A stretch of DNA of 13,166 nt, from contig JAISCM010000199.1 in the NCBI GenBank assembly GCA_031265595.1, positions 1-13,166 on the forward strand, given 5' to 3'. The position numbers were made by a program, and so were the translations under genes. Below, piece by piece: positions 1-11,097 of this stretch. The notes under the pieces were generated by a model. That model was not told the origin of the DNA. It did not search any database and was given only the letters and a program-made list of their open reading frames with translations. Numbering within the stretch: position 1 is the first letter of the stretch; each line of letters opens with the position of its first letter. Source of the stretch: Tannerellaceae bacterium. Its GTDB lineage: Bacteria; Bacteroidota; Bacteroidia; Bacteroidales; Tannerellaceae.

Positions 1-65
1 AATAAGAGTAACATACCCCAGGCGGCCATTTGAGTGATGCGGGTAGAGTGTTTGTATAATTTCAT
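1..65 (-). CDS. N-terminus of an exported protein, cut by the left edge
   Basis: Reading the minus strand from an ATG at 65-63 gives 21 open codons to the window edge, beginning MKLYKHSTRITQM and continuing AAWGMLLL. Basic residues (K2, K5, R9) followed by a hydrophobic run look like the start of a signal peptide, so the product is probably exported or a lipoprotein; the cleavage site lies outside the window. A purine-rich tract (repeated AAGA) precedes the start. I see no clean TAnnTTTG box; TATTATTG about 40 bases upstream is a near match. The function cannot be named from 21 residues. The gene is divergent from the lipoprotein at 445, and the palindromic array 199-320 lies between them. 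Confidence 0.5.
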   Translation of the reverse strand, partial: MKLYKHSTRITQMAAWGMLLL

Positions 66-198
66 AATCATCTTTCTTTCTTTCTTACAAGATGCAATAA
101 TACACATTTTTGCTGCATATAGCAGGCAAACCTTATCGAAATTATTACATAAAATCATCGTATCGGTTTATTGTTTTGATGGTGAATAAGTAATTGTA

Positions 199-320
199 TG
201 CTCGCATCCATTTGAGCCTTTCACAGATGTGAAACCTTCCTTTCACGGCTGTGAAACCTTCCTTTCACAGGTGTGAAACCTTCCTTTCACAGCCGTGAAA
301 GGCTCAAATGGATGCGAGCA
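199..320. repeat. Palindromic array: four 22-bp dyad units inside 26-bp inverted arms
   Basis: Positions 199-224 and 295-320 are exact reverse complements (26 bp, beginning TGCTCGCATCC). Between and including the arm tips are four copies of TTTCAC-N4-GTGAAA, starting at 219, 241, 263 and 285, an exact 22-bp period. Three identical CCTTCC linkers separate them. The four-base centres are AGAT, GGCT, AGGT and AGCC; the second and fourth units are exact reverse complements of each other. The DNA or RNA could form four small hairpins or one long interrupted stem. No coding sequence, TAnnTTTG promoter or obvious target-site duplication is seen in or beside it. It lies 134 bases from the start of the minus-strand gene and 124 bases from the ATG at 445. 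The function is unknown; the structure is certain. Confidence 0.95.
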
Positions 321-402
321 AAGCAATAAATCATCTACTATAAACAACTAAAACAATGAGACAAATTGATGAGACCGGCCTGTCATATAATAGCTTTTTT
401 CG

Positions 403-410
403 TACATTTG
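403..410 (+). promoter_or_regulatory. Candidate -7 promoter box of the lipoprotein operon
   Basis: TACATTTG matches the Bacteroidales -7 consensus TAnnTTTG and lies 34 bases before the ATG at 445, giving a plausible 5' leader of about 30 bases. A good -33 TTTG is not evident at the usual distance. Confidence 0.45.
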
Positions 411-444
411 CAAATTAGTATGTGAGACGAAACGGTATAACGGT

Positions 445-1272
445 ATGAAGAGAGTGGCTATTTATAGTGTAGGGATGATGTTCTTGCTGGCCGGATGCAG
501 CCATCGTGAGCAGGAGGCAAGGGCAAGATACCAGAAGGCAGCGGATCTGTATGAGCAGAACGATTTGTTTGCCGCCAGGAATGAGATAGACAGTATACGG
601 CTTTATTACCCCAAAGAGGTAAAGGTACTGAAAGACGCTGTAGAACTGAAACGCCTGGTTGAGCTTAAAGAAGCAGACCGGAATATAGCGTATTGCGACA
701 GCCTGCTACCCATCCGGCAGGAAGAAGCCGGGGTACTGAATAAAAACTTTATCATGGAAAAAGATACGCTTTACCAGGATATAGGCCATTATGTATGGAA
801 ACAACAAACGATAGAACGGAATGTAGAACGAAGCTACGTGCGCTGTAAGGTAAGCGAAGACGGCGTGATGGCGCTGGAGAGCGTTTACTTCGGCAGCCGC
901 CCGCTGAATCATACGGGCATAAACGTGAGCGCCCGCGATGGCCTCTTTGCCGAAACGGTAGCTATCCCATACGACGGCGGCCTGAATTACCGTTTTCAGG
1001 ACTTAGGCAATACCACAGAAGTAGTCACCTATAAAGGAGAAAACGGCGTGGATGCAGTGAAATTTATCTATGCCAATGCCGGCGAACGCATTAAAGTGAC
1101 GTATACAGGCGGCAAAGCGTATACCATCTATATGGCCGACGCCGATAAGAAAGCGCTCGTTGCCACTTACGACCTGGCAACGGTATTGAGCGAAATAGAT
1201 ACCTTGCAGAGAGAGCGCGAGAAAGCAACGAAAAGAAAAGCCTATCTGGAAGGCAAACTAACGAAGGGATGA
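445..1272 (+). CDS. Lipoprotein, TPR-like N-terminal region
   Basis: 275 residues. The N-terminus MKRVAIYSVGMMFLLAGC is a lipoprotein signal peptide with lipobox LAGC, so Cys18 is the likely acylated residue and the product should be anchored in the envelope. Residues about 20-75 (ARYQKAADLYEQNDLFAARNEID) look like one TPR-type helical hairpin. The middle is mixed and probably beta-rich. The last 35 or so residues (LSEIDTLQREREKATKRKAYLEG) are highly charged and probably form a coiled coil. It looks like a conserved Bacteroidales lipoprotein of unknown function; I cannot assign a role. Its TGA stop overlaps the ATG of the phosphatase gene by 4 bases (ATGA), so the two are probably translationally coupled. 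Confidence 0.9.
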   Translation: MKRVAIYSVGMMFLLAGCSHREQEARARYQKAADLYEQNDLFAARNEIDSIRLYYPKEVKVLKDAVELKRLVELKEADRNIAYCDSLLPIRQEEAGVLNKNFIMEKDTLYQDIGHYVWKQQTIERNVERSYVRCKVSEDGVMALESVYFGSRPLNHTGINVSARDGLFAETVAIPYDGGLNYRFQDLGNTTEVVTYKGENGVDAVKFIYANAGERIKVTYTGGKAYTIYMADADKKALVATYDLATVLSEIDTLQREREKATKRKAYLEGKLTKG

Positions 1273-1799
1273 TGGAAATATACCTGATACGGCATACGTC
1301 GGTATGCGTCCCTCCCGGATATGTATATGGACAAACCGATGTAGCGCTGAACGATACCTTTGAGGCGGAAGCCGGCGTAGTGAAGAAAAACCTGGAAGGG
1401 CTTGTGTTTGACGAGGTATGGTGCAGCCCGTTGACGCGCTGTGTGCGCCTGGCCGGCTATTGCGGTTATCCCCACGCCCTGCGCGACGACAGGATAAAGG
1501 AATTGAATTTCGGCGCGTGGGAAATGAAAGTATGGAACGAACTAACGGATGGCCGCTCGAAAGACTGGTTTGCAAACTGGGTAGATACACCTACCCCCGG
1601 CGGCGAATCCCTCACCGACCAATACAAAAGGGTAGCCCTTTTCCTCGACGAGGTACGGCAGGGCGATTACCGGCGGGTAGGCGTATTTGCCCATGGAGGC
1701 GTATTGGCAAATGCCCGCGTATATGCCGGCGAATGTAGTATTGAAAGGGCTTTTGAGCATATTCCCGCTTATGGGGAGATAATAAAGTTACAGTTTTAG
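1269..1799 (+). CDS. cobC: Histidine phosphatase family protein, CobC-like (alpha-ribazole phosphatase)
   Basis: 176 residues of the histidine phosphatase (phosphoglycerate mutase-like) superfamily. The phospho-accepting motif is LIRHTS, with Arg8 and His9; the usual RHG is RHT, common in CobC-type members. Other active-site candidates are Arg57 in SPLTRC, Glu78 in IKELNFG and His142 in FAHGGV. CobC removes the 5'-phosphate of alpha-ribazole phosphate (or adenosylcobalamin phosphate) late in cobalamin nucleotide-loop assembly, in the cytoplasm. The family also contains phosphatases of other substrates, and no other cobalamin genes are present here, so the substrate is inferred. Two ATGs lie in tandem at 1269 and 1272; I use the first, which overlaps the upstream stop. 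Confidence 0.8.
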   Translation: MMEIYLIRHTSVCVPPGYVYGQTDVALNDTFEAEAGVVKKNLEGLVFDEVWCSPLTRCVRLAGYCGYPHALRDDRIKELNFGAWEMKVWNELTDGRSKDWFANWVDTPTPGGESLTDQYKRVALFLDEVRQGDYRRVGVFAHGGVLANARVYAGECSIERAFEHIPAYGEIIKLQF

Positions 1800-1827
1800 T
1801 TGTTTAATTAAAAAGAATCATATCGAT

Positions 1828-2241
1828 ATGAAAAGAGTAGTGTTTTTAATAAGTTGGGCCTTGCTCCTTTTTTCTTGTTCGGACGACGAGAAGCCTTCGA
1901 ATAATTTTATTGAAGGCACCAGGTGGCAGGCAGCTAAATCAGGTTCCAGCTATACGGGAACGAACGAGTTAAGTTACAACTATCAGGAGAGCCGGCGGAT
2001 GGATTTTACAAATACCACATTTACTCTTACCAAAGAGGTAAAGTACGACAGAAACTTAAAGGGAGTTTATATAAAAGAAGATTCATCTACCATAAAAGGA
2101 ACGTATACGTTCGAATACCCGGTAACTACCCTGAAGCCGGACGACGGCAAGGCTATTAAAATAAAGATCGGGACGTATCAGATAGAAACCGTACCGGAGG
2201 GTAGCGAAGGATCATTGATATTTACCAGGGTAAAGGAGTAA
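1828..2241 (+). CDS. Small lipoprotein of unknown function
   Basis: 137 residues. MKRVVFLISWALLLFSC is a lipoprotein signal peptide with Cys17 as the acylation site, followed by an acidic SDDEK linker typical of surface-directed Bacteroidetes lipoproteins. The remainder contains alternating polar and hydrophobic stretches (TRWQA, RMDFTNTTFTLTKEV, KGTYTFEYPVTTL, SLIFTRV) suggesting an all-beta domain, possibly lipocalin-like as in many small Bacteroidales lipoproteins; that fold is inferred. It starts 28 bases after the phosphatase stop with no clear promoter between, so it is probably the last gene of the operon. A strong hairpin terminator starts at its stop codon. Confidence 0.8.
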   Translation: MKRVVFLISWALLLFSCSDDEKPSNNFIEGTRWQAAKSGSSYTGTNELSYNYQESRRMDFTNTTFTLTKEVKYDRNLKGVYIKEDSSTIKGTYTFEYPVTTLKPDDGKAIKIKIGTYQIETVPEGSEGSLIFTRVKE

Positions 2242-2280
2242 AAAAACAACCACAGTCCGGCTGGGCTGTGGTTGTTTTTT
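2241..2280. terminator. Bidirectional rho-independent terminator
   Basis: A 15-bp perfect inverted repeat (AAAAAACAACCACAG at 2241-2255 and its complement at 2266-2280) surrounds a 10-base loop. The A-tract on one side and the T-tract on the other let it work in both directions. It sits between the convergent ends of the lipoprotein gene (stop 2239-2241) and the CoA transferase gene (stop at 2291 on the minus strand). Confidence 0.9.
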
Positions 2281-2290
2281 TGCCTGGAGA

Positions 2291-3784
2291 TCAATTATAC
2301 AGGCTCCAGTCTACATTCCGCATATCGCCGCTTTTGGCTAATTCCTGATGAAAGGCAAAGCAGCATTTCAGATTCTGCGGCGTATGTCCTTTCACGCTCA
2401 TCTCCAGATATTCATTGAGCAGCGGCTTATAGTCGGGATGTACGCAATTGTCTATTATCTTACGGGCGCGCTGTATCGGCGACGTTCCCCGCAAGTCGGC
2501 CACGCCAAATTCGGTAATGATCACCTTTACCGAGTGTTCGCTGTGGTCTAAGTGAGACACCATCGGGACGAACGCGCTGATCTTACCGTTCTTGGCCGTA
2601 GAAGGTGTGGTAAAAATCGAACACATGGCCGAACGCGTAAAGTCTCCCGAGCCTCCGATGCCATTCATCATCCGTGTTCCGGATACATGGGTGGAGTTTA
2701 TATTTCCGAATATATCCGCTTCCAGGGCCGTATTGATGGCTACTAATCCCATGCGGCGCGCTACCTCCGGGTTATTAGATATTTCCTGCGGGCGAAGTAG
2801 TATCTTATCTTTAAAGAAATCGAGGTTGGCATAAATATCGTCCATTACGTCATTGCTTACGGTCAGCGAGCAACCGCTGGCAAATACTACGCGCCCTTCT
2901 TTCATTAATTTAATAACAGAATCCTGTATCACTTCCGTGTATACATAGAAGTTTGGTATCTCTTTGTTCTCGCCCATACAACCCAGTACGGCATTCGCCA
3001 CGTTGCCTACGCCGCTCTGCAAGGGCACAAACTCTTTCGGCAGCCGTCCGGCTTTCATTTCTCCCACAAGGAATGCCGCTACGTTTTGCCCGATAGCCAG
3101 CGTAGCATCGTCAATCGGGGTGAAGGCGCCCCCTTCATTTTCTTCTTCGGTGATCACTACGCCGGCAATCTTCGAAGGGTCTACCTTTACATACGGCTTC
3201 CCGATACGGTCAGAAGGCGTATAAACAGGGATCTCACAGCGGCGGGGCGGGTCTTCCGGTTCGTAAATATCGTGCATACCACGTATTTCCTTCGGATGTT
3301 TCTTGTTTAGTTCTACAATAATACGATCGGCCAGGCGGCAGATAGTAGGCGTAATACCAACCGCGTTGGTAGGAACAATCTCTCCGTTCTCCGTAACGTC
3401 GGCCGCTTCAATAATCGCTGTGTTTACTTTTCCTAAAAAGCCATAGCGTAAGCTCTGTGCCAATTCAGACAGATGCATGTCGAAGTAATGCGTTTCTCTG
3501 GCGTTTAAAAGCGCCCGCAGGTCTGGGCTGGATTGATAAGGCGTACGAAATTTAATTGCTTTGGCGCGTGCAAGTTCTCCGTCGAGTTTGTCGCCGGTAG
3601 AAGCTCCGGTAAACATCCCTATCTGAAACGGATTGCCTTTTTCATGTTCTTCTTTTGCTCTTTTTGCAATAGCTGTCGGAACGGCTTTGGGGCATCCGGC
3701 AGCAGTAAAACCACTAAAGCCCACATTGTCGTCATGCTGAATCAACGAAGCGGCTTCTTCAGGTGTAATAAATTTTAATGCCAT
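2291..3784 (-). CDS. Acetyl-CoA hydrolase / succinate CoA-transferase family
   Basis: 497 residues, full length for the class I CoA-transferase subfamily that includes acetate:succinate CoA-transferases such as AarC and Cat1. The N-terminal half has NVGFSGFTAAGCPKAVP (20-36) and GMFTGASTGDKLDG (56-69). The expected oxyanion-region segment is VPLQSGVGNVANAV (253-266). Glu284 in FYVYTEVIQD is the expected catalytic glutamate that forms the glutamyl-CoA intermediate. NGIGGSGDF (374-382) is the C-terminal CoA-binding signature. In Bacteroidales this enzyme probably moves CoA between succinate and acetate or propionate in the succinate-propionate fermentation; the donor and acceptor cannot be fixed from sequence. 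It has its own promoter downstream of the membrane-protein gene at 3866 and ends at the shared terminator. Confidence 0.93.
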   Translation of the reverse strand: MALKFITPEEAASLIQHDDNVGFSGFTAAGCPKAVPTAIAKRAKEEHEKGNPFQIGMFTGASTGDKLDGELARAKAIKFRTPYQSSPDLRALLNARETHYFDMHLSELAQSLRYGFLGKVNTAIIEAADVTENGEIVPTNAVGITPTICRLADRIIVELNKKHPKEIRGMHDIYEPEDPPRRCEIPVYTPSDRIGKPYVKVDPSKIAGVVITEEENEGGAFTPIDDATLAIGQNVAAFLVGEMKAGRLPKEFVPLQSGVGNVANAVLGCMGENKEIPNFYVYTEVIQDSVIKLMKEGRVVFASGCSLTVSNDVMDDIYANLDFFKDKILLRPQEISNNPEVARRMGLVAINTALEADIFGNINSTHVSGTRMMNGIGGSGDFTRSAMCSIFTTPSTAKNGKISAFVPMVSHLDHSEHSVKVIITEFGVADLRGTSPIQRARKIIDNCVHPDYKPLLNEYLEMSVKGHTPQNLKCCFAFHQELAKSGDMRNVDWSLYN

Positions 3785-3839
3785 GATAGTAAAATTAAAA
3801 TGTAAGATAAATACCTATTATTTCAGAACTCTAAGGTCG

Positions 3840-3847
3840 CAAAGGTA
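3840..3847 (-). promoter_or_regulatory. Candidate -7 box of the CoA transferase gene
   Basis: The minus strand reads TACCTTTG, an exact TAnnTTTG match, in the 81-base gap between the two minus-strand genes. It predicts a leader of about 50 bases before the ATG at 3784. No convincing -33 TTTG was found. Confidence 0.5.
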
Positions 3848-3865
3848 TTAAAAAGAATCTATGAT

Positions 3866-4342
3866 TTAATATTTGCGATGGAGTATTTCAGCGTATACAA
3901 TAGCTTTTTTCAATTCGTCCACGCTACGAAAAGAATCAGCCGGTAGCGCAAAAGCTTCTTCTTCGGATAAGTTTATTAAATCTAACGGTTGGCTGGCCGG
4001 CATTTCCCCAAAAGCGCTTATTCCTTCGCTGCGATAAGCGGGTATAGACGATGTAGCCGGCTTCTTTTTTTCTTGCGTTTTTTTCTTTTTCTCTGTTACA
4101 ACAACGGGCCGGGGCTGAGGCTTCGGCGCTTCTTCCTGCGCTTGCCCTCCGCTCTGCATCTCCTCCAGCAATTCCCAGAAGCTTTTAGGCTTCGGCGCAT
4201 TACTACCTTTGTTTTCTGTTTCCGGCATAGGCTGCTGAGGCGCTTGTCCGGCCTGTTTCTTTTTCTTTGCAGAACTAAAAAGACTGCTGATCCCAACAGC
4301 AATTAAAATAACAATATAAAGCCAGTCGCCCAGGTTGTCCAT
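3866..4342 (-). CDS. Small single-pass membrane protein of unknown function
   Basis: 158 residues. A hydrophobic segment at about residues 7-24 (WLYIVILIAVGISSLF) is followed by SAKKKK, the positive-inside pattern of an N-out, C-in signal anchor. Residues about 29-110 are low complexity, rich in Pro, Gln, Lys and Glu, with a short helical patch KSFWELLEEMQSG and a KKKKTQEKKK stretch. The C-terminus (FRSVDELKKAIVYAEILHRKY) looks like a short conserved helix. It resembles uncharacterised Bacteroidales membrane proteins that pair an anchor with a disordered cytoplasmic linker. The function is not recognised. It lies upstream of, and in the same direction as, the CoA transferase gene, but each has a candidate promoter, so a shared function is not implied. 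Confidence 0.8.
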   Translation of the reverse strand: MDNLGDWLYIVILIAVGISSLFSSAKKKKQAGQAPQQPMPETENKGSNAPKPKSFWELLEEMQSGGQAQEEAPKPQPRPVVVTEKKKKTQEKKKPATSSIPAYRSEGISAFGEMPASQPLDLINLSEEEAFALPADSFRSVDELKKAIVYAEILHRKY

Positions 4343-4364
4343 AACTTTGATTACTTTTGTGCTC

Positions 4365-4372
4365 CAAATATA
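4365..4372 (-). promoter_or_regulatory. Candidate -7 box of the membrane-protein gene
   Basis: The minus strand reads TATATTTG, an exact TAnnTTTG match 22 bases before the ATG at 4342, implying a leader of about 15 bases. No clear -33 element was found. Confidence 0.45.
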
Positions 4373-4418
4373 GGAATAATATTGTAAAATGGAAAAAAAA
4401 GAGAAGAGAAGATTTCTT

Positions 4419-4459
4419 AGGCCGAACCGGTGTTGCCCATAGCTTTTCCGGTATAGCCT
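4419..4459. other. Interrupted dyad with a following T-run
   Basis: AGGC-CGA-ACCGG (4419-4430) pairs with CCGGT-ATA-GCCT (4448-4459), leaving an internal 3x3 loop and a 17-base hairpin loop, and TTTT begins near the 3' arm. It could be a weak plus-strand terminator, but no gene that would need one is visible upstream on that strand. A 17-codon frame at 4389-4442 (MEKKEKRRFLRPNRCCP) overlaps it and is not supported as a gene. Confidence 0.25.
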
Positions 4460-4467
4460 TTTAGTCT

Positions 4468-4528
4468 CGCCAAATTGACTAATAAAAAGTCGCCAAATTG
4501 ACTAAAAACTATCCGCCAAATTGACTAA
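4468..4528 (+). repeat. Three 15-bp direct repeats at a 23-bp period
   Basis: CGCCAAATTGACTAA occurs exactly at 4468-4482, 4491-4505 and 4514-4528. The intervening 8-base linkers differ, so the repeated motif rather than the whole period is conserved. The third copy ends 16 bases before a TAnnTTTG box and its TTGAC lies at the -33 position. This is what an operator array controlling the downstream ATPase remnant would look like; the binding protein is unknown. Confidence 0.9.
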
Positions 4529-4552
4529 TTTCAGAAAGCAAGTGTACCTTTG
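4521..4552 (+). promoter_or_regulatory. Candidate promoter of the ATPase remnant
   Basis: TACCTTTG at 4545-4552 matches the -7 consensus, and TTG at 4521-4523 lies 21 bases upstream as a -33 element. The -33 element is inside the third direct repeat, so a protein bound to the repeats would compete with RNA polymerase. The leader to the ATG at 4582 would be about 25 bases. Confidence 0.6.
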
Positions 4553-4581
4553 CAAATGAAATCCAAAAGAATAGAGAAGAT

Positions 4582-4760
4582 ATGAACAAGTCTGTGATTC
4601 AATATAAACAACGAATAGTAGATAAATTGCTAAGAGAAAAACTGGAAGGGATGGGAGCGGTGATAGAAGGTTCCTAATGGTGCTGACCGGAACCGGGCGA
4701 TATGCCTTTCGCCGGAAGGATGGGGTCTTGGTAGTTCCTATAGGCTGCATGAAGGAGTAG
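4582..4760 (+). pseudogene. Remnant of an AAA+ ATPase with DUF4143, internally deleted
   Basis: From the ATG at 4582 a 31-codon frame reads MNKSVIQYKQRIVDKLL followed by REKLEGMGAVIEGS and stops at 4675-4677. This matches the typical N-terminus of Bacteroidales AAA_14/DUF4143 ATPases, which continue into LIEGPKWCGKTT, the Walker A region; here the frame breaks just before Walker A. A second frame, shifted by two bases (4677-4760), reads MVLTGTGRYAFRRKDG then VLVVPIGCMKE and stops; this resembles the C-terminus of the same family. About 300 or more internal codons have therefore been lost and the junction, near 4670-4677, is out of frame. The family assignment comes from recall of its terminal motifs, not a search. 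The promoter and operator-like repeats upstream remain intact. Confidence 0.75.
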
Positions 4761-4969
4761 TATAAAAATAAATAAGGATAACTTCGCAGCCACCCTTATT
4801 CGATTTAACCAAAACCTTAACTATGAAAAAATTTACGTTTTTCGATACAAATGTAAAATAAGAGTTTTGTATGCGCAAATTTTTTCATAAGTATTTTTGA
4901 AAAAATGATACATTTAATGCTTATTAACATGCGTAGAAACTATAAAATACTTAAAAAAGAATTGTATAT
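4761..4969 (+). other. Intergenic region between the ATPase remnant and miaB
   Basis: AATAAGG (4771-4777) and CCTTATT (4794-4800) form a 7-bp stem around a 16-base loop, possibly a weak terminator for the remnant, although no T-run follows. At 4823-4861 an ATG preceded by AACCTTAACT opens a 12-codon frame (MKKFTFFDTNVK). Its start context resembles those of real Bacteroidales genes, so it may be a decayed 5' end or a leader peptide. The rest is AT-rich. Confidence 0.3.
4866..4899 (+). promoter_or_regulatory. Candidate miaB promoter
   Basis: TATTTTTG at 4892-4899 fits the -7 consensus TAnnTTTG, with TTTG at 4866-4869 upstream at a 22-base spacing, slightly long for a -33 element. The leader to the ATG at 4970 would be about 65 bases and very AT-rich. 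Confidence 0.5.
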
Positions 4970-6307
4970 ATGTCTGAAAACAAGAGAGAACGAAAGCTTT
5001 TTATTGAAACATACGGTTGCCAGATGAATGTAACGGACAGCGAAGTGGTAGCCTCAGTTATGCAGATGGATGGGTATGAAATTACGGCAGAAATGGAAGA
5101 AGCGGATGCCATATTTCTTAATACCTGCTCGGTAAGAGACAATGCGGAACAAAAAATATATAACCGCTTGCAGTATCTACAGTCGTTTCGGAAGAAAAAG
5201 AAACACCTTATCATCGGCGTACTGGGCTGTATGGCCGAACGGGTAAAAGAATCCCTGATCAATGAGCATCAGGTAGACTTAGTGGTAGGCCCCGATTCGT
5301 ATATGGATCTGCCCAATTTAGTAGGCGCTGTAGAGCAGGGCGAAAAGGCGATTAATGTAGAACTATCCACGCAGGAAACCTATAAAGATGTGATACCGCT
5401 TAAAATAGGTGGGGTGAAAATCTCCGGTTTTATCTCTATTATGCGGGGATGTAATAACTTTTGTACGTATTGCATCGTCCCCTATACCCGCGGACGCGAA
5501 CGCAGCCGCGACGTTGAGAGTATACTGAACGAAGTGCGCGACATGAAGGAACAGGGCTTCAGGGAAGTGACTCTGCTGGGGCAAAATGTCAACTCCTACC
5601 GTTTCGTAGAAGGGGATGATACGATCGTAACATTTCCTTTATTATTAGAAAAGGTAGCCCGGGAGGCGCCGGCTATGCGTATTCGCTTCACTACTTCGCA
5701 TCCGAAAGATATGAGCGACGAAACCTTGCACGTGATGGCTTCCTATTATAATATATGTAAGCATATACATTTACCGGCCCAGTCGGGAAGCTCGCGTGTA
5801 CTAAAGGCAATGAACCGTAAATATACCCGTGAATGGTATCTCGGACGGATTGCTGCTATTAAGCGTATCTTACCGGATTGCGCCATCTCTACCGACCTGT
5901 TCTGCGGCTTCCATTCCGAAACGGAAGAAGATTATCAGGAGACGCTCTCCTTAATGAAGGAAGTAGGCTATGATTCATCCTTTCTGTTTAAGTATTCGGA
6001 ACGCCCCGGCACGTATGCCGCGAAGCATCTGGCAGACGATATTGTCGAAGAAGAGAAAATACGCCGACTGCAAGGCATGATCGATCTTCAGAATCATTTA
6101 TCGGAAGAAAGCAACAGGCGCGTTATAGGGAAAGAATTTGACGTATTGATAGAAGGTTTCTCCAAACGTTCGCGCGAGCAGTTGTTCGGACGAACCAGCC
6201 AAAACAAAGTGGTCATTTTCGATAAGAAACAATTCCATGTAGGGGATTTTGTAACTGTACGGATCACCCATGCCTCTTCTGCCACTTTATTTGGCGAACC
6301 GGTATGA
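4970..6307 (+). CDS. miaB: tRNA-2-methylthio-N6-dimethylallyladenosine synthase
   Basis: 445 residues, normal length. MiaB is a cytoplasmic radical-SAM methylthiotransferase that converts i6A37 to ms2i6A37 in tRNAs reading UNN codons. The N-terminal methylthiotransferase domain carries the three auxiliary iron-sulfur cluster cysteines: Cys17 (ETYGCQMN), Cys53 (NTCSVR) and Cys87 (GVLGCMAER). The radical-SAM domain has the CxxxCxxC motif at Cys161, Cys165 and Cys168 (RGCNNFCTYCIVPYTRGRE). The C-terminal 70 or so residues, ending in THASSATLFGEPV, form the TRAM RNA-binding domain. YGCQMN and NNFCTYC favour MiaB over the paralogues MtaB and RimO. It appears monocistronic, with nearly 300 bases before the next gene. 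Confidence 0.97.
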   Translation: MSENKRERKLFIETYGCQMNVTDSEVVASVMQMDGYEITAEMEEADAIFLNTCSVRDNAEQKIYNRLQYLQSFRKKKKHLIIGVLGCMAERVKESLINEHQVDLVVGPDSYMDLPNLVGAVEQGEKAINVELSTQETYKDVIPLKIGGVKISGFISIMRGCNNFCTYCIVPYTRGRERSRDVESILNEVRDMKEQGFREVTLLGQNVNSYRFVEGDDTIVTFPLLLEKVAREAPAMRIRFTTSHPKDMSDETLHVMASYYNICKHIHLPAQSGSSRVLKAMNRKYTREWYLGRIAAIKRILPDCAISTDLFCGFHSETEEDYQETLSLMKEVGYDSSFLFKYSERPGTYAAKHLADDIVEEEKIRRLQGMIDLQNHLSEESNRRVIGKEFDVLIEGFSKRSREQLFGRTSQNKVVIFDKKQFHVGDFVTVRITHASSATLFGEPV

Positions 6308-6401
6308 TTTCTTTCGATTATTAAAACAACCGGATAGCTGTTGCTTCCTTAATACGTAAATAAAAAAAAACAGAGTTGCTTTATCAGCACTGTTATCATA
6401 T

Positions 6402-6523
6402 TACATTTGTTTCCAAATTAAAACACTTTCTCGAATGAAAGTCGTCTTATCTTTTTTGTGAATTAACTAATTGTTAATTTAGGGTTAGTTTTAAGTGGGG
6501 AGCCTGTGAAGGTCCCCCCTTTT
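6402..6523 (+). ncRNA. Candidate small RNA or leader transcript
   Basis: TACATTTG at 6402-6409 is an exact -7 box, with TTG at 6376-6378 in a loose -33 position (23-base spacing). About 90 bases later a GC-rich hairpin followed by TTTT could end the transcript. The interval holds no open frame beyond an 8-codon ATG frame (MKVVLSFL, from 6435). It would give an RNA of roughly 100-110 bases ending before mlaE. It could equally be an attenuating mlaE leader or simply distal miaB 3' sequence. Confidence 0.3.
6497..6523 (+). terminator. Probable rho-independent terminator upstream of mlaE
   Basis: GGGGA-G-CCT (6497-6505) pairs with AGG-TCCCC (6510-6517) around a GTGA tetraloop, with one bulged G, and is followed within a few bases by TTTT. 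It could end a miaB read-through transcript or a short RNA starting near 6415. Confidence 0.55.
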
Positions 6524-6585
6524 AATTAATAGCGTTTGTACCAATATTAGCATCGTATGGCCGTTCGTGTTTTGATTATTTCTGT

Positions 6586-6593
6586 TATCTTTG
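6586..6593 (+). promoter_or_regulatory. Candidate -7 box immediately before mlaE
   Basis: TATCTTTG is an exact TAnnTTTG match only 12 bases before the ATG at 6606. The predicted start of transcription is therefore within about 10 bases of that ATG, giving a very short leader, or favouring the in-frame ATG at 6618 (Met5). Confidence 0.5.
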
Positions 6594-6605
6594 CCCCCTT
6601 AATTA

Positions 6606-7361
6606 ATGGGTATCCGAATGAATGAGTCGTTACATCGTCTGGGCGAATATGTGTTGTTGATGAAAAAAGCGATTGCTCTTCCCGACCGCTGGAGTATGTT
6701 TTTCAAACAACTGATCCGGGAAATATACAAGCTTGGTGTTGATTCGATCTGGATTGTTGTTATTATATCTGTCTTTATCGGTACGGTAATTGCTATCCAG
6801 ATATCACTGAATATCAATACGCCGCTGATCCCTAAGTTTACGATAGGCTATACTACGCGCGAGATCATCTTGCTTGAGTTCTCGTCGTCTATCATGTGTC
6901 TGATCCTGGCCGGGAAGGTGGGAAGCAATATTGCTTCGGAAATAGGGACGATGCGTATTACCGAACAGATAGACGCCATGGAGATCATGGGGGTTAATTC
7001 GGCCAACTTTCTTATCATGCCCAAGATCGCCGGGCTGATGTTGTTTATTCCCGTGCTTGTTGTCTTTAGTATGTTTACCGGAATAATCGGAGGCATTTGC
7101 GCCAGCTACTTAGATACAAAGATGACGCCTTCTTCCTTTGAGTATGGGTTGCAATTCTATTTTAATTCCTTCTATATCTGGTATTCTATCATCAAATCTG
7201 TTGTGTATGCCTTTATCATATCGTCCATTGCCGCTTACTTTGGATATAATGTAAAAGGCGGCGCGCTGGATGTAGGCAAAGCCAGTACGAATGCTGTTGT
7301 AATGAGCAGTATTATGATCCTGCTGGCCGAAGTTATTCTTACCCACTTAATGCTTACGTAA
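6606..7361 (+). CDS. mlaE: MlaE-type phospholipid transport permease
   Basis: 251 residues, permease of an MCE-associated ABC transporter (MlaE/YrbE family). It is an inner-membrane protein with about five hydrophobic helices, including residues 47-68 and others around 93-102, 138-165, 185-210 and 230-250. The family hallmark is the conserved block LAGKVGSNIASEIGTM (101-116) followed by RITEQIDAMEIMGV. Mla-type systems move phospholipids between the inner and outer membranes to keep outer-membrane lipid asymmetry. The ATPase gene follows after one base, so they are surely co-transcribed. No mlaD-type MCE gene is adjacent; in Bacteroidales it is usually elsewhere. The start may be the ATG at 6606 or 6618; residues 1-4 look dispensable. 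Confidence 0.93.
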   Translation: MGIRMNESLHRLGEYVLLMKKAIALPDRWSMFFKQLIREIYKLGVDSIWIVVIISVFIGTVIAIQISLNINTPLIPKFTIGYTTREIILLEFSSSIMCLILAGKVGSNIASEIGTMRITEQIDAMEIMGVNSANFLIMPKIAGLMLFIPVLVVFSMFTGIIGGICASYLDTKMTPSSFEYGLQFYFNSFYIWYSIIKSVVYAFIISSIAAYFGYNVKGGALDVGKASTNAVVMSSIMILLAEVILTHLMLT

Positions 7362-7362
7362 T

Positions 7363-8124
7363 ATGATAGAAGTTAAGAATCTTACCAAGTCATTTGAAGG
7401 ACGAACCGTTTTGTATAACATCAGCGCTGTCTTTGAAACCGGTAAAACGAACCTGATCATCGGACGGAGCGGCTCGGGAAAGACAGTTTTACTGAAAAAT
7501 ATTATCGGACTGATGCAGCCCGACTCCGGAGAGATCTTCTACGATGGGCGGAAACTGATTGGTATGGGGAAAAAGGAATTAAATGCACTTCGCCGCGAGA
7601 TGGGCATGTTGTTTCAGGGCTCTGCTCTGTTTGATAGCATGACTGTGCTCGAGAATGTGATGTTTCCCCTGGATATGTTTTCCGATGATTCGTATAAAGA
7701 GCGTGAAAAGCGGGCAATGCTCTGCCTCGAACGCGTCAACCTTCTTGATGCCGAGCATCTGTATCCCTCCGAGATAAGTGGGGGGATGATGAAACGGGCG
7801 GCCATAGCGCGGGCAATTGCTTTGAAGCCACAGTATTTGTTTTGCGACGAACCTAATTCTGGTCTGGATCCAAAGACTGCCTTGCTGATAGACGACCTCA
7901 TCCATGATATTACGGTAGAATATAAGATGACAACGATCATCAATACGCATGATATGAACTCCGTTATCAATATCGGCGAGAATATCGTATTTATTAAAGA
8001 AGGTATAAAGGAATGGCAGGGCGACAAAGACCAGATCATGAGTTCAAATAATGAAGCGCTGAACGACTTTATCTTCGCTTCCGATCTGTTCAAGAAAGTA
8101 AAGAGAGTCGAAAGCCAGAAATAA
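7363..8124 (+). CDS. mlaF: MlaF-type ABC transporter ATPase
   Basis: 253 residues, the nucleotide-binding subunit that powers the MlaE permease from the cytoplasmic side. The motifs are complete: Walker A GRSGSGKT (34-41), Q-loop Gln85 (MLFQGSALF), signature SGGMMKR (139-145), Walker B YLFCDEP (158-164) with D-loop SGLDP, and switch His196 (NTHDMNS). SGGMMKR in place of SGGQ is characteristic of the MlaF/Ttg2A group. The start is one base after the mlaE stop. The gene converges with metK, 42 bases away. Confidence 0.95.
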   Translation: MIEVKNLTKSFEGRTVLYNISAVFETGKTNLIIGRSGSGKTVLLKNIIGLMQPDSGEIFYDGRKLIGMGKKELNALRREMGMLFQGSALFDSMTVLENVMFPLDMFSDDSYKEREKRAMLCLERVNLLDAEHLYPSEISGGMMKRAAIARAIALKPQYLFCDEPNSGLDPKTALLIDDLIHDITVEYKMTTIINTHDMNSVINIGENIVFIKEGIKEWQGDKDQIMSSNNEALNDFIFASDLFKKVKRVESQK

Positions 8125-8165
8125 AACCCGGCGCTATCCGGCTTCCGGCTTCCGACTCCCGGTTT
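8124..8165. other. mlaF-metK convergent gap: weak dyad and a 7-bp tandem repeat
   Basis: AAACCCGG (8124-8131) and CCCGGTTT (8158-8165) pair except for one C-C mismatch and could be a poor bidirectional terminator. Inside are three 7-base tandem units, TCCGGCT, TCCGGCT and TCCGACT (8137-8157). No strong T-run is present. Confidence 0.35.
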
Positions 8166-8166
8166 G

Positions 8167-9453
8167 TCAGAGAGTAAATACTTCTTTTATCTTCGCTACG
8201 TAGTCTAATTTCTCCCACGTAAACAACTCTACTTCTATGTCTACCGGCTCCGGATTATAGCGTGAGTTGAACGTCTTTGTTTTCGTTTCCGGCTTACGCC
8301 CCATGTGTCCGTATGAGGCTGTTTCCAGATAGATAGGATTACGCAGTTTCAGCCGTTCTTCGATGGCTTTGGGGCGCATATCGAATAATTGCCCTACTTT
8401 ATCTGCAATTTCGCCGTCGCTAAGGTTTACTTTTGAGCGTCCGTATGTATTAACAAAGATATTCATAGGCCTGGCTACGCCGATGGCATAAGATACCTGT
8501 ACTAATAGCTCGTCGGAGACGCCTGCTGCCACCAGGTTTTTAGCAATATGCCGGGCTGCATAAGCTGCCGAGCGGTCTACTTTAGAAGGATCTTTGCCCG
8601 AGAAGGCGCCGCCGCCGTGCGCTCCTTTGCCCCCATACGTATCTACGATGATCTTTCGCCCCGTCAATCCCGTATCTCCGTGCGGGCCGCCAATAACAAA
8701 CTTCCCGGTAGGATTTACATGATAGTTGATATTGTCGCTGAACAAGGCTTGTACATGCACAGGATAAGAAGCTTTTACGCGGGGGATAAGGATATTCTTT
8801 ACATCAAGGATGATACGTTGCTGCATGGCCTTATCGGCTTCCGCCTGTGTGATCCCTTCCGGTTTGATAAATTCGTCGTGTTGCGTGGATATAACAATGG
8901 TATCGATCCGGCGGGGCGAACCGTTATCTTCGTATTCTATCGTAACCTGGCTTTTGGCATCCGGGCGCAGGTAAGGCATCAGTTCAGGCTCGTTTTTGCG
9001 TATAGAGGCCAGTTCTTGCAGCAGGCTGTGCGACAGGTCTAAGGCGAGCGGCATATAGTTGTCCGTCTCATTGGTAGCATAGCCGAACATCATGCCCTGG
9101 TCGCCGGCGCCCTGGTCGTATGGGTTTTCACGCTCTACGCCACGGTTTATGTCTCCGCTCTGTTCGTGAATGGATGAAAATACGCCGCACGATTTGGCTT
9201 CAAACTGATATTCGCTTTTGGTATAGCCAATTTGTTCGATCACATCGCGCACCACTTCTTGTACATCTACGTAGGCGCTTGATTTAACTTCTCCAGCCAG
9301 CACAACCTGTCCGGTTGTAACAAGGGTTTCGCAAGCTACTTTAGAGTTCCGGTCGTAAGCCAGAAACTCATCAAGCAAAGCATCCGATATTTGATCGGCT
9401 ACTTTATCGGGGTGCCCTTCAGACACCGATTCGGAGGTAAATAAATAACTCAT
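8167..9453 (-). CDS. metK: S-adenosylmethionine synthetase
   Basis: 428 residues, cytoplasmic methionine adenosyltransferase making SAM from ATP and methionine. The signatures are present: [15 protein letters not shown] (11-25) with His14 at the ATP site, [12 protein letters not shown] (125-136), [14 protein letters not shown] (264-277), and the glycine-rich loop [16 protein letters not shown] beginning at residue 290. It is somewhat longer than the roughly 385 residues of E. coli MetK, as is usual in Bacteroidales. It supplies the methyl and radical donor used by enzymes such as MiaB; their nearness here is probably coincidental. The leader contains a candidate attenuator (9476-9506). No recognised SAM riboswitch was found. 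Confidence 0.98.
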
Positions 9454-9475
9454 CTCTTTACTAAATTTGATAATT

Positions 9476-9506
9476 AAAAAATACTAAAGCCTTAACGGCT
9501 TTAAGG
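9476..9506 (-). promoter_or_regulatory. Possible attenuator in the metK leader: two exclusive hairpins and a U-tract
   Basis: On the minus strand, AAAGCC-GTTAA-GGCTTT (9502-9486) is a perfect 6-bp hairpin followed after four bases by six Ts (9481-9476), like a weak terminator 22 bases before the metK ATG. The same bases form the alternative hairpin CCTTAA-AGCCG-TTAAGG (9506-9490), also perfect, which cannot coexist with the first. This is the layout of an attenuation switch. The stems are short, so chance is possible. Confidence 0.35.
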
Positions 9507-9716
9507 TTACTTTGAATTGAAAGGAGGGATTGCATTAACTTACCTGGTAACGGCAATAGTAAAGGCCTATTGTTTTTAGCATTTTTTCCTGTGGTTGCAA
9601 GCAATTCAAATCTGTCCACATCAATTCGGCAGTAAAGATATATATATATATTGAGATAATCGCTACTTTGACAGATTAATTAGATTTACGTGTTCAGAAA
9701 CGTTTCTCCTGATAAT
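9507..9716. other. Divergent intergenic region between metK and the palindromic array
   Basis: No gene is visible. Contents noted: dyad TTACC-T-GGTAA at 9540-9550; CAATAG (9554-9559) and CTATTG (9567-9572), a 6-bp stem followed on the plus strand by TTTTT; an (AT)7 run at 9638-9651; and the perfect 12-bp palindrome AGAAACGTTTCT at 9696-9707. The metK promoter probably lies here, but I found no exact TAnnTTTG box on the minus strand. Confidence 0.5.
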
Positions 9717-9856
9717 TTTTGAAAACCGTTTGCACTAATTTGTTTGCCGACATATATCGGCAATACTGTTGATATATGTCGGCAATATTGTTGATATATG
9801 TCGGCAGTATTGCCGATATATGTCGGCAAACAAATTGTTGCAAGTGGTTTTCAAAA
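9717..9856. repeat. 140-bp near-palindrome: four 22-bp dyad units inside inverted arms
   Basis: The whole interval is self-complementary about 9786/9787. An exact 32-bp inverted repeat (9737-9768 with 9805-9836) is extended outwards by 20 more bases with four mismatches, and inwards to the centre. It contains four 18-bp dyads at 9745, 9767, 9789 and 9811, an exact 22-bp period. The first and fourth (TGCCGACATATATCGGCA and its complement) are perfect dyads; the second and third are identical TGTTGATATATGTCGGCA. Of 70 opposed pairs, 60 are Watson-Crick; nine of the other ten are G-U on the plus strand and one is C-U. It lies between metK (start 9453) and the clostripain gene (start 9964). It has no coding content and no promoter box. 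Function unknown. Confidence 0.95.
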
Positions 9857-9951
9857 GTTAATGAACAAGATCCGCCCGGCAACTGTTATAGATATACTTA
9901 GTCTATATGTAAATAAAAACTATTGAATTACATTATTATTCGTTTTTTTTC

Positions 9952-9963: not shown

Positions 9964-11097
9964 ATGAAACTGTCTTATAAACTATTTTATTTGTCATATA
10001 TCATAACAGGCTTCTCCCTGTTTGCTTCCTGCGACTGGGATTGTACAAGCAACAAAGATACGTATAAGCGAACGGTTATTGCTTATATAGGGCGGGATAA
10101 TAACCTGAAGGTAGGGTATGAAGATAAAATTCAATCCATGCTGGAAGGCTGGAATGGCCGGAACGGGAATCTTATCATTTACCAGGATACGGCCGTAGGA
10201 AATTCCGGCCTGATGGAAGTATATACGGAGAAGGGCGTGAATAAAATTAAAACAGTCCGGGAATTTGCCAATGAAAACTCTGCCGATCCGAACGTTTTCA
10301 AACGTGTATTGAACGACGCTATTTCCCTCTACCCGGCAGATTCGTATGGACTTATTATTTTCTCGCACGCTTCCGGTTGGCTGCCCGAAGCTACGTTAGC
10401 CTCGCCCCGTTCCTTTTTTAAAGATGGTAAAGACGAAATGGAGCTTACTGATATGGCCGCCGCTATACCGGCCGGCTATTTCGATTTTATTGTTTTCGAG
10501 ACTTGTTTCTCTGCCGGCATCGAGGTGGCTTACGAGCTAAAGGATAAAACCAACTATATCATTGCTTCATCTGCCGAGCTGCTTTCGCCCGGGTTTAAAG
10601 AAATATATGCTTCTTCTTTAAACTACCTTTTTGAAAAAGAACCGAAGCTGGAAGCCTTTACGCGAAACATCTTTACCCTTATGAACGAAAGTGATGCGTA
10701 TTATAAGTCGGTCACAGTGAGCCTGATCAAAACAGAGAAGCTTGCCGACCTGGGCGCTTTTCTGCATCAATATATCGACGATGGGAAGATAAACGGCGTC
10801 AATCCGTACGATGTGCAGCATTTCGACAGGTATTCGTACCGGTTGTTTTTCGATTTTGAAGATTACTACTCCCGCATACTAAGCGACGATGCGCCTGCAC
10901 AGGAATTGAACGCTTTGCTGAACGAATGTGTACCCTATAAGGATGCCACGCCTTCTTTCCTTACCGGCTCCAGCAGTTGGATGGGATTCGATATAAAACG
11001 CCATTCCGGCTTAACTACTTACATCAGGCAGGAATACTTTCCGTACCTGAATCAGGAATACAAGAAACTGGCCTGGTACAAGGCCGTATTTGAATAA
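9964..11097 (+). CDS. Clostripain-family (peptidase C11) cysteine peptidase lipoprotein
   Basis: 377 residues. The signal peptide MKLSYKLFYLSYIITGFSLF is followed by lipobox FASC, giving Cys23 as the acylated residue, so the enzyme should be envelope-anchored. The peptidase C11 fold is recognised by the catalytic His135 in LIIFSHASGWLP and Cys181 in FDFIVFETCFSAG, followed by EVAYELKDKTNYIIASSAE, a typical C11 segment. Family members cleave after basic residues, often Arg or Lys, and several Bacteroidales have many such secreted copies. The substrate here is unknown. The start is the only ATG that keeps a full signal peptide. The glycosylase gene follows after 21 bases, probably co-transcribed. 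Confidence 0.88.
   Translation: MKLSYKLFYLSYIITGFSLFASCDWDCTSNKDTYKRTVIAYIGRDNNLKVGYEDKIQSMLEGWNGRNGNLIIYQDTAVGNSGLMEVYTEKGVNKIKTVREFANENSADPNVFKRVLNDAISLYPADSYGLIIFSHASGWLPEATLASPRSFFKDGKDEMELTDMAAAIPAGYFDFIVFETCFSAGIEVAYELKDKTNYIIASSAELLSPGFKEIYASSLNYLFEKEPKLEAFTRNIFTLMNESDAYYKSVTVSLIKTEKLADLGAFLHQYIDDGKINGVNPYDVQHFDRYSYRLFFDFEDYYSRILSDDAPAQELNALLNECVPYKDATPSFLTGSSSWMGFDIKRHSGLTTYIRQEYFPYLNQEYKKLAWYKAVFE

Follow-up and report, generated by a model that had tools for sequence, protein, structure and literature searches.

Two short intergenic arrays of dyad-symmetric units, here called array 1 and array 2, lie in the 13,166 nucleotides of a Tannerellaceae contig (JAISCM010000199.1, assembly GCA_031265595.1) that we analyzed (the window). 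Arrays of this kind share one architecture, their sequence families are linked to genes for HU-HIG proteins, and dyad and protein sequences diverge together. We propose that HU-HIG proteins bind these arrays as sets of adjacent sites, that each protein would have a dyad of its own and likely represses its own gene through it, and that copies have spread elsewhere. Judging from sequence comparison, we consider this reading about 80% probable.

A class of dyad arrays with a 22-bp period

Array 1 has four 16-bp dyads of the TTTCACnGnTGTGAAA type at 219-234, 241-256, 263-278, and 285-300, closed by perfect 20-bp inverted arms at 199-218 and 301-320, as read directly. Array 2 (9713-9860) has four 20-bp dyads of the TTGCCGAYAnnTRTCGGCAA type at 9744-9763, 9766-9785, 9788-9807, and 9810-9829, with the left arm at 9713-9743 and the right arm at 9830-9860; taken as 74-nt arms, its two sides are 85% complementary. 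None of these features has a strand. The period is exactly 22 bp in both, and self-complementarity over the entire array is 79% for array 1 and 85% for array 2. The summed score of four dyads in the window reached 28 at spacing 22, compared with 18 to 20 at the 16 other spacings between 16 and 32, and 200 local shuffles scored no higher than 22 at spacing 22. The two arrays are unrelated in sequence (local score of 13, equaled by 230 of 300 shuffles).

The same architecture recurs in relatives. We scanned sampled DNA of three genomes that form one genus by the grouping used: G006, apparently Parabacteroides sp. PF5-5 (1.19 Mb), G001 (539 kb), and G003 (361 kb). In G006, all 24 arrays that scored at least 24 in the four-dyad scan over periods 16 to 32 have period 22. 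With the score lowered to 22, there were 40 at period 22 versus 8 at all other periods together, and period 33 gave a harmonic. Locally shuffled G006 DNA had at most one match at spacings 20 to 23 in one shuffled copy of the 1.19 Mb; the shuffle controls of these scans were single shuffles, with letters mixed within 100-base blocks. Altogether, 79 arrays of period 22 were counted (54 in G006, 14 in G001, 8 in G003, 2 in the window, and 1 at locus L002), versus 1 to 6 each at periods 19, 20, 23, 25, and 26 summed across the same sets, a count that left out periods 21 and 24. Plain tandem repeats of 21 bp do exist: 388 kb of G006 contained 5, versus 13 of 22 bp, and a 304-kb set of more distant loci had more at 21 bp (6) than at 22 bp (2). 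The preliminary description of the window had read the two arrays as one near-palindromic architecture in two unrelated sequences. The exact spacing and the inverted arms are confirmed, and the architecture is that of a real class, found by scanning relatives and not arising as often in the shuffled DNA.

Nine dyad families were distinguished in G006; F9 resembles F1, and the others look different. Most families have an A four bases before the dyad center (by eye). By a loose counting rule, elements with four dyads make up 9/9 of F1, 7/7 of F4, 6/8 of F3, and 3/9 of F2. Solitary dyads are rare in the G006 sample (7 of 54 clusters, 4 of these F7, with matrices trained on arrays). The families differ between species within one genus. 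F2 occupies at least 17 places in G006 and is absent among the matches listed in the other 17 of the 18 genomes of the genus, where at most 16 candidates were scored per genome, so that species-specific expansion is likely. An F1 variant is present at about 40 places in G073 (40 of 85 candidates scored). Of 123 genomes in the family, 9 contain matches to the F1 core of array 2, and several copies are present in some, up to many. At E <= 1e-4, a covariance model of F1 matched 7 of 393 Bacteroidales genomes, and the match was weak in four of the seven. Across the dyad part, 18 F1 copies align without gaps. The class shows that a spacing (22 bp, with four dyads in most cases) can persist while sequence turns over.

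Two further sets of period-22 repeats were seen. One dispersed G001 family has CATCGTAATGCTTTTGCAAAGA units (L001 9560-9740, L034 8446-8640, and L043 9389-9560) and flanks shared over about 180 bp by eye; no HU-HIG partner was found for it. The other comprises long 22-bp arrays of 4.1 and 9.6 units at L019 (12797-12886 and 16364-16574), in another Tannerellaceae assembly.

HU-HIG genes beside the arrays

A listing of neighboring genes revealed that those adjoining arrays of different families look alike. Three of the encoded proteins match PF18291 (HU-HIG) with 88.8 to 91.4 bits, against a cutoff of 26.2. A search of the 1,639 open reading frames (ORFs) called in the sampled DNA with the PF18291 hidden Markov model gave ten matches. 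Five are strong; all of these are G006 genes, and every one is 14 to 98 bp from an array. Their arrays belong to five families: F1, F6, F4, F2, and a TTTTCACAG type with a similarity of 0.65 to F8. The five weak matches, one 439-amino-acid (aa) protein and four small HU-type genes, are at least 6.8 kb from any array, one being on a contig without an array.

Eight further HU-HIG loci were found in G006. Two encode long proteins (197 and 206 aa) and adjoin F9 and F5 arrays, which previously had no partner. Including L254, all seven examined G006 HU-HIG proteins of at least 197 aa have an upstream array. By eye, there is no array at the six shorter ones (79 to 153 aa; L282, L283, L284, L285, L288, and L289), which have a common C-terminal ..C.RTHLD tail and form a separate subgroup.

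Dyad sequence also goes with protein sequence. Over 31 long proteins with an array, the Mantel correlation between dyad similarity and protein identity was 0.48 (p 0.0002); it was 0.40 (p 0.0002) for pairs below 60% identity and 0.26 (p 0.0036) for pairs below 45%. Dispersed F6 and F9 each best match one particular G006 HU-HIG array, at 0.96 and 0.95 with the native copy left out, as do dispersed F1, F2, and F4, at 0.97 to 0.99 with the native copy included. Furthermore, F1 arrays found by DNA alone directly precede an HU-HIG gene in six genomes: G001 (C42:17328-17408, gene at 17442), G006 (on C2), G035 (C38:14186-14285, gene at 14353), G054 (C122:6884-6989, gene at 7063), G073 (C54:62493-62605, gene on the minus strand, to 62457), and G074 (C1:404205-404304, gene at 404364). 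This check covered F1 genomes other than the four with weak covariance matches. The HU-HIG leader is the only place matched by the F1 core in G001 and G054. In G054, the HU-HIG frame behind that place (C122:7063-7646) is broken by a stop codon.

Generality across the Bacteroidales

HU-HIG loci were collected by PF18291 searches in the genus (18 genomes) and the order (149 genomes, 20 of them with E <= 1e-15), and we examined 30 loci per search, plus L045 of G001 and the G006 loci. For proteins of at least 190 aa, lag 22 was the unique best self-similarity in the 300 bp upstream at 31 of 37 loci (L297 and L311 among them are near copies), when about 2 of 37 would be expected by chance if 17 lags were equally likely. 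Without the four discovery loci, the count was 27/33. The dyad score was uniquely best at 22 in 26 of the same 37, and either measure was in 33. Shorter proteins had the lag-22 maximum in 4/7 cases at 145 to 189 aa, in 8/20 at 113 to 144 aa, some with low scores, and in 0/6 at 112 aa or less. Upstream periods of 23 (L274) and 21 (L303) also occur.

Arrays go mainly, not only, with winged-helix HU-HIG proteins, because the lag-22 maximum was found for 28 of the 34 proteins that match a winged helix, for 15 of the 30 longer than 112 aa without one, and for none of six small proteins in this count by domain. Six helix-less cases are strong (score of at least 45; the F2 partner, L261, L265, L279, L280, and L281), and the others are weak.

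Proposed binding sites and alternative explanations

In the reading that we favor, each array would hold four, and sometimes five or more, abutting predicted sites for HU/IHF-like HU-HIG dimers, which in most array-linked cases have a C-terminal winged helix. Each protein would have its own dyad sequence, with probably one dimer per dyad. Several protein dimers on one DNA face, as the preliminary description had suggested, would suit HU-HIG partners well. The array before a protein's own gene likely serves local autorepression, because it precedes that gene and is often just downstream of the -7 box of a promoter. Further copies in other intergenic regions would be products of spread, and those in the window may affect their neighbor genes.

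Several observations weigh against this reading. F3 and F7 of G006 have no HU-HIG partner (best similarities of 0.70, to a doubtful array, and 0.41), the partner of F8 in its own genome is weak (0.65, compared with 0.76 to another species), and none was found for the CATCCAGATG family of G003 or the CATCGTAATG family of G001. For array 1, a candidate partner is suggested by similarity, the nearest HU-HIG leader arrays being L255 (0.78) and L252 (0.69). There are F1 matches in G011 and G013 without an HU-HIG match, and those in G023, G027, and G051 are not beside an HU-HIG gene. Conversely, some long HU-HIG genes have no period-22 array (L260, L304, L313, with four dyads only by eye, and L274, with period 23), and the shorter protein L285 has a best lag of 22 (score of 34) without visible dyads. 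The winged helix is not sufficient, with 6 of 34 such proteins lacking the lag-22 maximum, and the helix-less half that has it indicates that it is not needed either. Some arrays depart from four dyads, with five in both F6 elements and five or more, by eye, in G074. The promoter box lies between array and ATG in 6 of 31 native arrays. Finally, the dyad halves of F1 are more symmetric than halves permuted within elements (P 0.0045).

This F1 symmetry bears on the question of whether the arrays are conserved as nucleic acid structures, be it a cruciform, a single long hairpin of the whole array, or a row of four hairpins in RNA or single-stranded DNA. Every dyad can pair, as can most of each whole array, and native arrays would be transcribed, because they often stand just after a promoter-like box. 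Pairing cells in F1 were slightly more frequent than in shuffles (87.0% versus 85.7%, reached by 20 of 500). However, doubly changed pairs in the F1 alignment were no more frequent than in shuffles (8 versus 8.8 for four hairpins and 12 versus 15.3 for one long hairpin), and in F2, F3, and F4, agreement between the dyad halves at variable positions is lower than after permutation of halves across the family. Conservation as hairpins is therefore very improbable. Because some dyad positions are invariant whereas others change freely, and because the outermost half-sites of F3 and F4 are unlike the inner ones, dyad variation reads as a pattern of protein contacts.

A second possibility is that the arrays are mobile elements resembling miniature inverted-repeat transposable elements (MITEs) or REPINs (repetitive extragenic palindromic [REP] doublets forming hairpins), the copy before an HU-HIG gene being one of many and not recognized by the protein. 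As is general for MITEs, they are dispersed in multiple copies with inverted ends. Single families are expanded in one species (F2 in G006 and the F1 variant in G073), and the genes adjoining F1 arrays in G006 appear from their N-terminal sequences to be unrelated. However, chance insertion leaves the different family at each of the five strong HU-HIG genes without explanation, and it yields neither arrays at 27 of 33 further genes with mostly private sequences nor the co-divergence. Furthermore, no consistent target-site duplication was seen by eye, with none in the F4 and G073 flanks. Candidate partners were also tried. Rpn nucleases (PF12784) had no match in G006, G073, or G003, and Y1 transposases of the REP-associated tyrosine transposase (RAYT) type had none in G003, G035, or G023. 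G073 has a Y1-transposase-like gene, L244, with its own repeats of the ATCCCGAAGGGAT type on both sides. A parent transposon with split half-arrays around a gene was rejected too, as there was no same-family cluster pair within 6 kb in the 1.19 Mb of G006. The plasmid and phage sequences searched had no match to array 2. Of the MITE-like class that the preliminary description had envisaged, the dispersed families are borne out, but we found neither target-site duplications nor a transposase. Mobile elements that the protein does not recognize are thus an improbable explanation, whereas spreading elements that also serve as putative binding sites are part of the best one.

Alternatively, the dispersed arrays could be ordinary regulons of HU-HIG transcription factors, kept by selection on expression. 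Seven of eight F1 arrays in G006 are between divergent genes, and the locus between metK and a clostripain-family gene has an array in the window, L001, and L003, each with a different unit. Over all regions that allowed comparison, the orthologous place has an array for 6 of 24 regions with one, compared with 11 of 147 regions without one. However, four of the six orthologous cases are that single locus, the families differ between species of one genus, and a regulon might be expected to have single sites, which is at odds with the rarity of solitary dyads in G006. Ordinary regulons, which are compatible with the binding-site reading, are a rather unlikely account.

The two arrays of the window

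By its sequence, array 2 belongs to F1 and array 1 to a TTTCAC..GTGAAA family, and both are best read as dispersed copies. The family of array 2 is one that stands directly before an HU-HIG gene: its similarity is 0.91 to the array that precedes the HU-HIG gene of G001 (L045) and 0.86 to the G006 F1 HU-HIG array. Window positions 9773-9853, from dyad 2 through dyads 3 and 4 into 24 bp of the right arm, match the L045 leader at 68/81 positions, and on the other strand, positions 9712-9834, beginning in the left arm, match it at 87/123. Because both strands match, array 2 seems to have been copied from the operator and leader of an HU-HIG gene, with a piece of leader on both sides. The dyad families nearest to array 1 are F8 of G006 (0.84), which is dispersed, and L023 of G001 (0.79).

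Array 2 is flanked divergently by metK, for S-adenosylmethionine synthetase (8167-9453, minus strand, start at 9453), and the gene for a clostripain-family peptidase (PF03415; 9964-11097, plus strand, start at 9964). To the right of array 1 is an ORF for 275 aa with no match in the Pfam scan (445-1272, plus strand). A divergent position of array 1 is plausible, its possible left gene being an open frame of just 23 codons where the window begins (1-71, minus strand). Placement between divergent genes, claimed for both arrays, holds for array 2, but it is not a rule: 39 of 40 listed G006 arrays were classed as 16 divergent, 15 tandem, 4 convergent, and 4 overlapping a called ORF, and 88 of all 224 G006 intergenic regions of at least 130 bp are divergent.

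The loci closest to the window, L001 to L003, are from Tannerellaceae metagenome assemblies, and only parts of the window align with them. The L001 and L003 units at the metK/clostripain locus have a common CATCCCAATG core. At this locus, 2.2 kb of other DNA sets the window apart from L001, and G006 and G003 are too distant from each other for proof of an empty site. Elsewhere in the window, three 23-bp direct repeats with a CGCCAAATTGACTAA core (4467-4529) precede a short open stretch starting near 4582. No dyads or inverted repeats were found in them, and they are of a different class.

Discussion

If the arrays are HU-HIG sites, a family of HU-like proteins gains concrete, sequence-defined candidate targets, with specificity predicted from sequence in many independent protein-array pairs. 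The role of HU-HIG paralogues becomes directly testable in a Parabacteroides strain. A tentative extension, which we hold to be possible but short of an even chance, is that a Bacteroidales chromosome carries several orthogonal "private nucleoid codes." The array of each protein would mediate its self-repression and spread along with it, and site sets would rise and vanish between sister species and rewire intergenic regions without a conventional transposase.

The Pfam entry for PF18291 describes the protein only, as an HU domain fused to a winged helix-turn-helix (wHTH), an Ig, or a glycine-rich motif. We found no description of these arrays, of HU-HIG target sites, or of PF18291 in the open-licence literature searched, which does not imply absence from print. 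In a Foldseek search, the winged helix resembled AspA of pNOB8 (5k5q; probability of 1.00, E of 3e-3). IHF was listed weakly there, and phmmer against PDB gave IHF at an E of 4.5e-4. VIA-align listed only the winged helix (134-200), and the HU part was barely tested by it. AspA reads palindromic sites. Unlike this centromere-binding wHTH type, HU-HIG proteins add an HU domain, and the arrays are scattered over the chromosome in many families.

In REPIN/RAYT systems, too, palindromic elements are dispersed and go together with a protein gene next to which a copy is found. The arrays differ in having an HU/wHTH DNA-binding protein as the partner instead of a Y1 transposase, and in that several different pairs occur per genome.

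BrickBuilt MITEs of Porphyromonas gingivalis, named as a parallel in the preliminary description, resemble the arrays in being dispersed between genes as tandem units, each spanning about two helical turns. They are 23-nt direct repeats in 1 to 22.8 units, with a leader, a tail, and IS5-like ends, GAGACCTTTGCA (PMC4596501). The arrays of the class described here, in contrast, are 22-bp dyads, mostly four, and those of the window have neither the direct-repeat units nor GAGACCTTTGCA ends. Identity with BrickBuilt is not supported. However, BrickBuilt_14, an 84-nt copy, is beside an HU-type gene (PF00216) in Table 1 of that source, and it is possibly a 23-bp relative of this array class.

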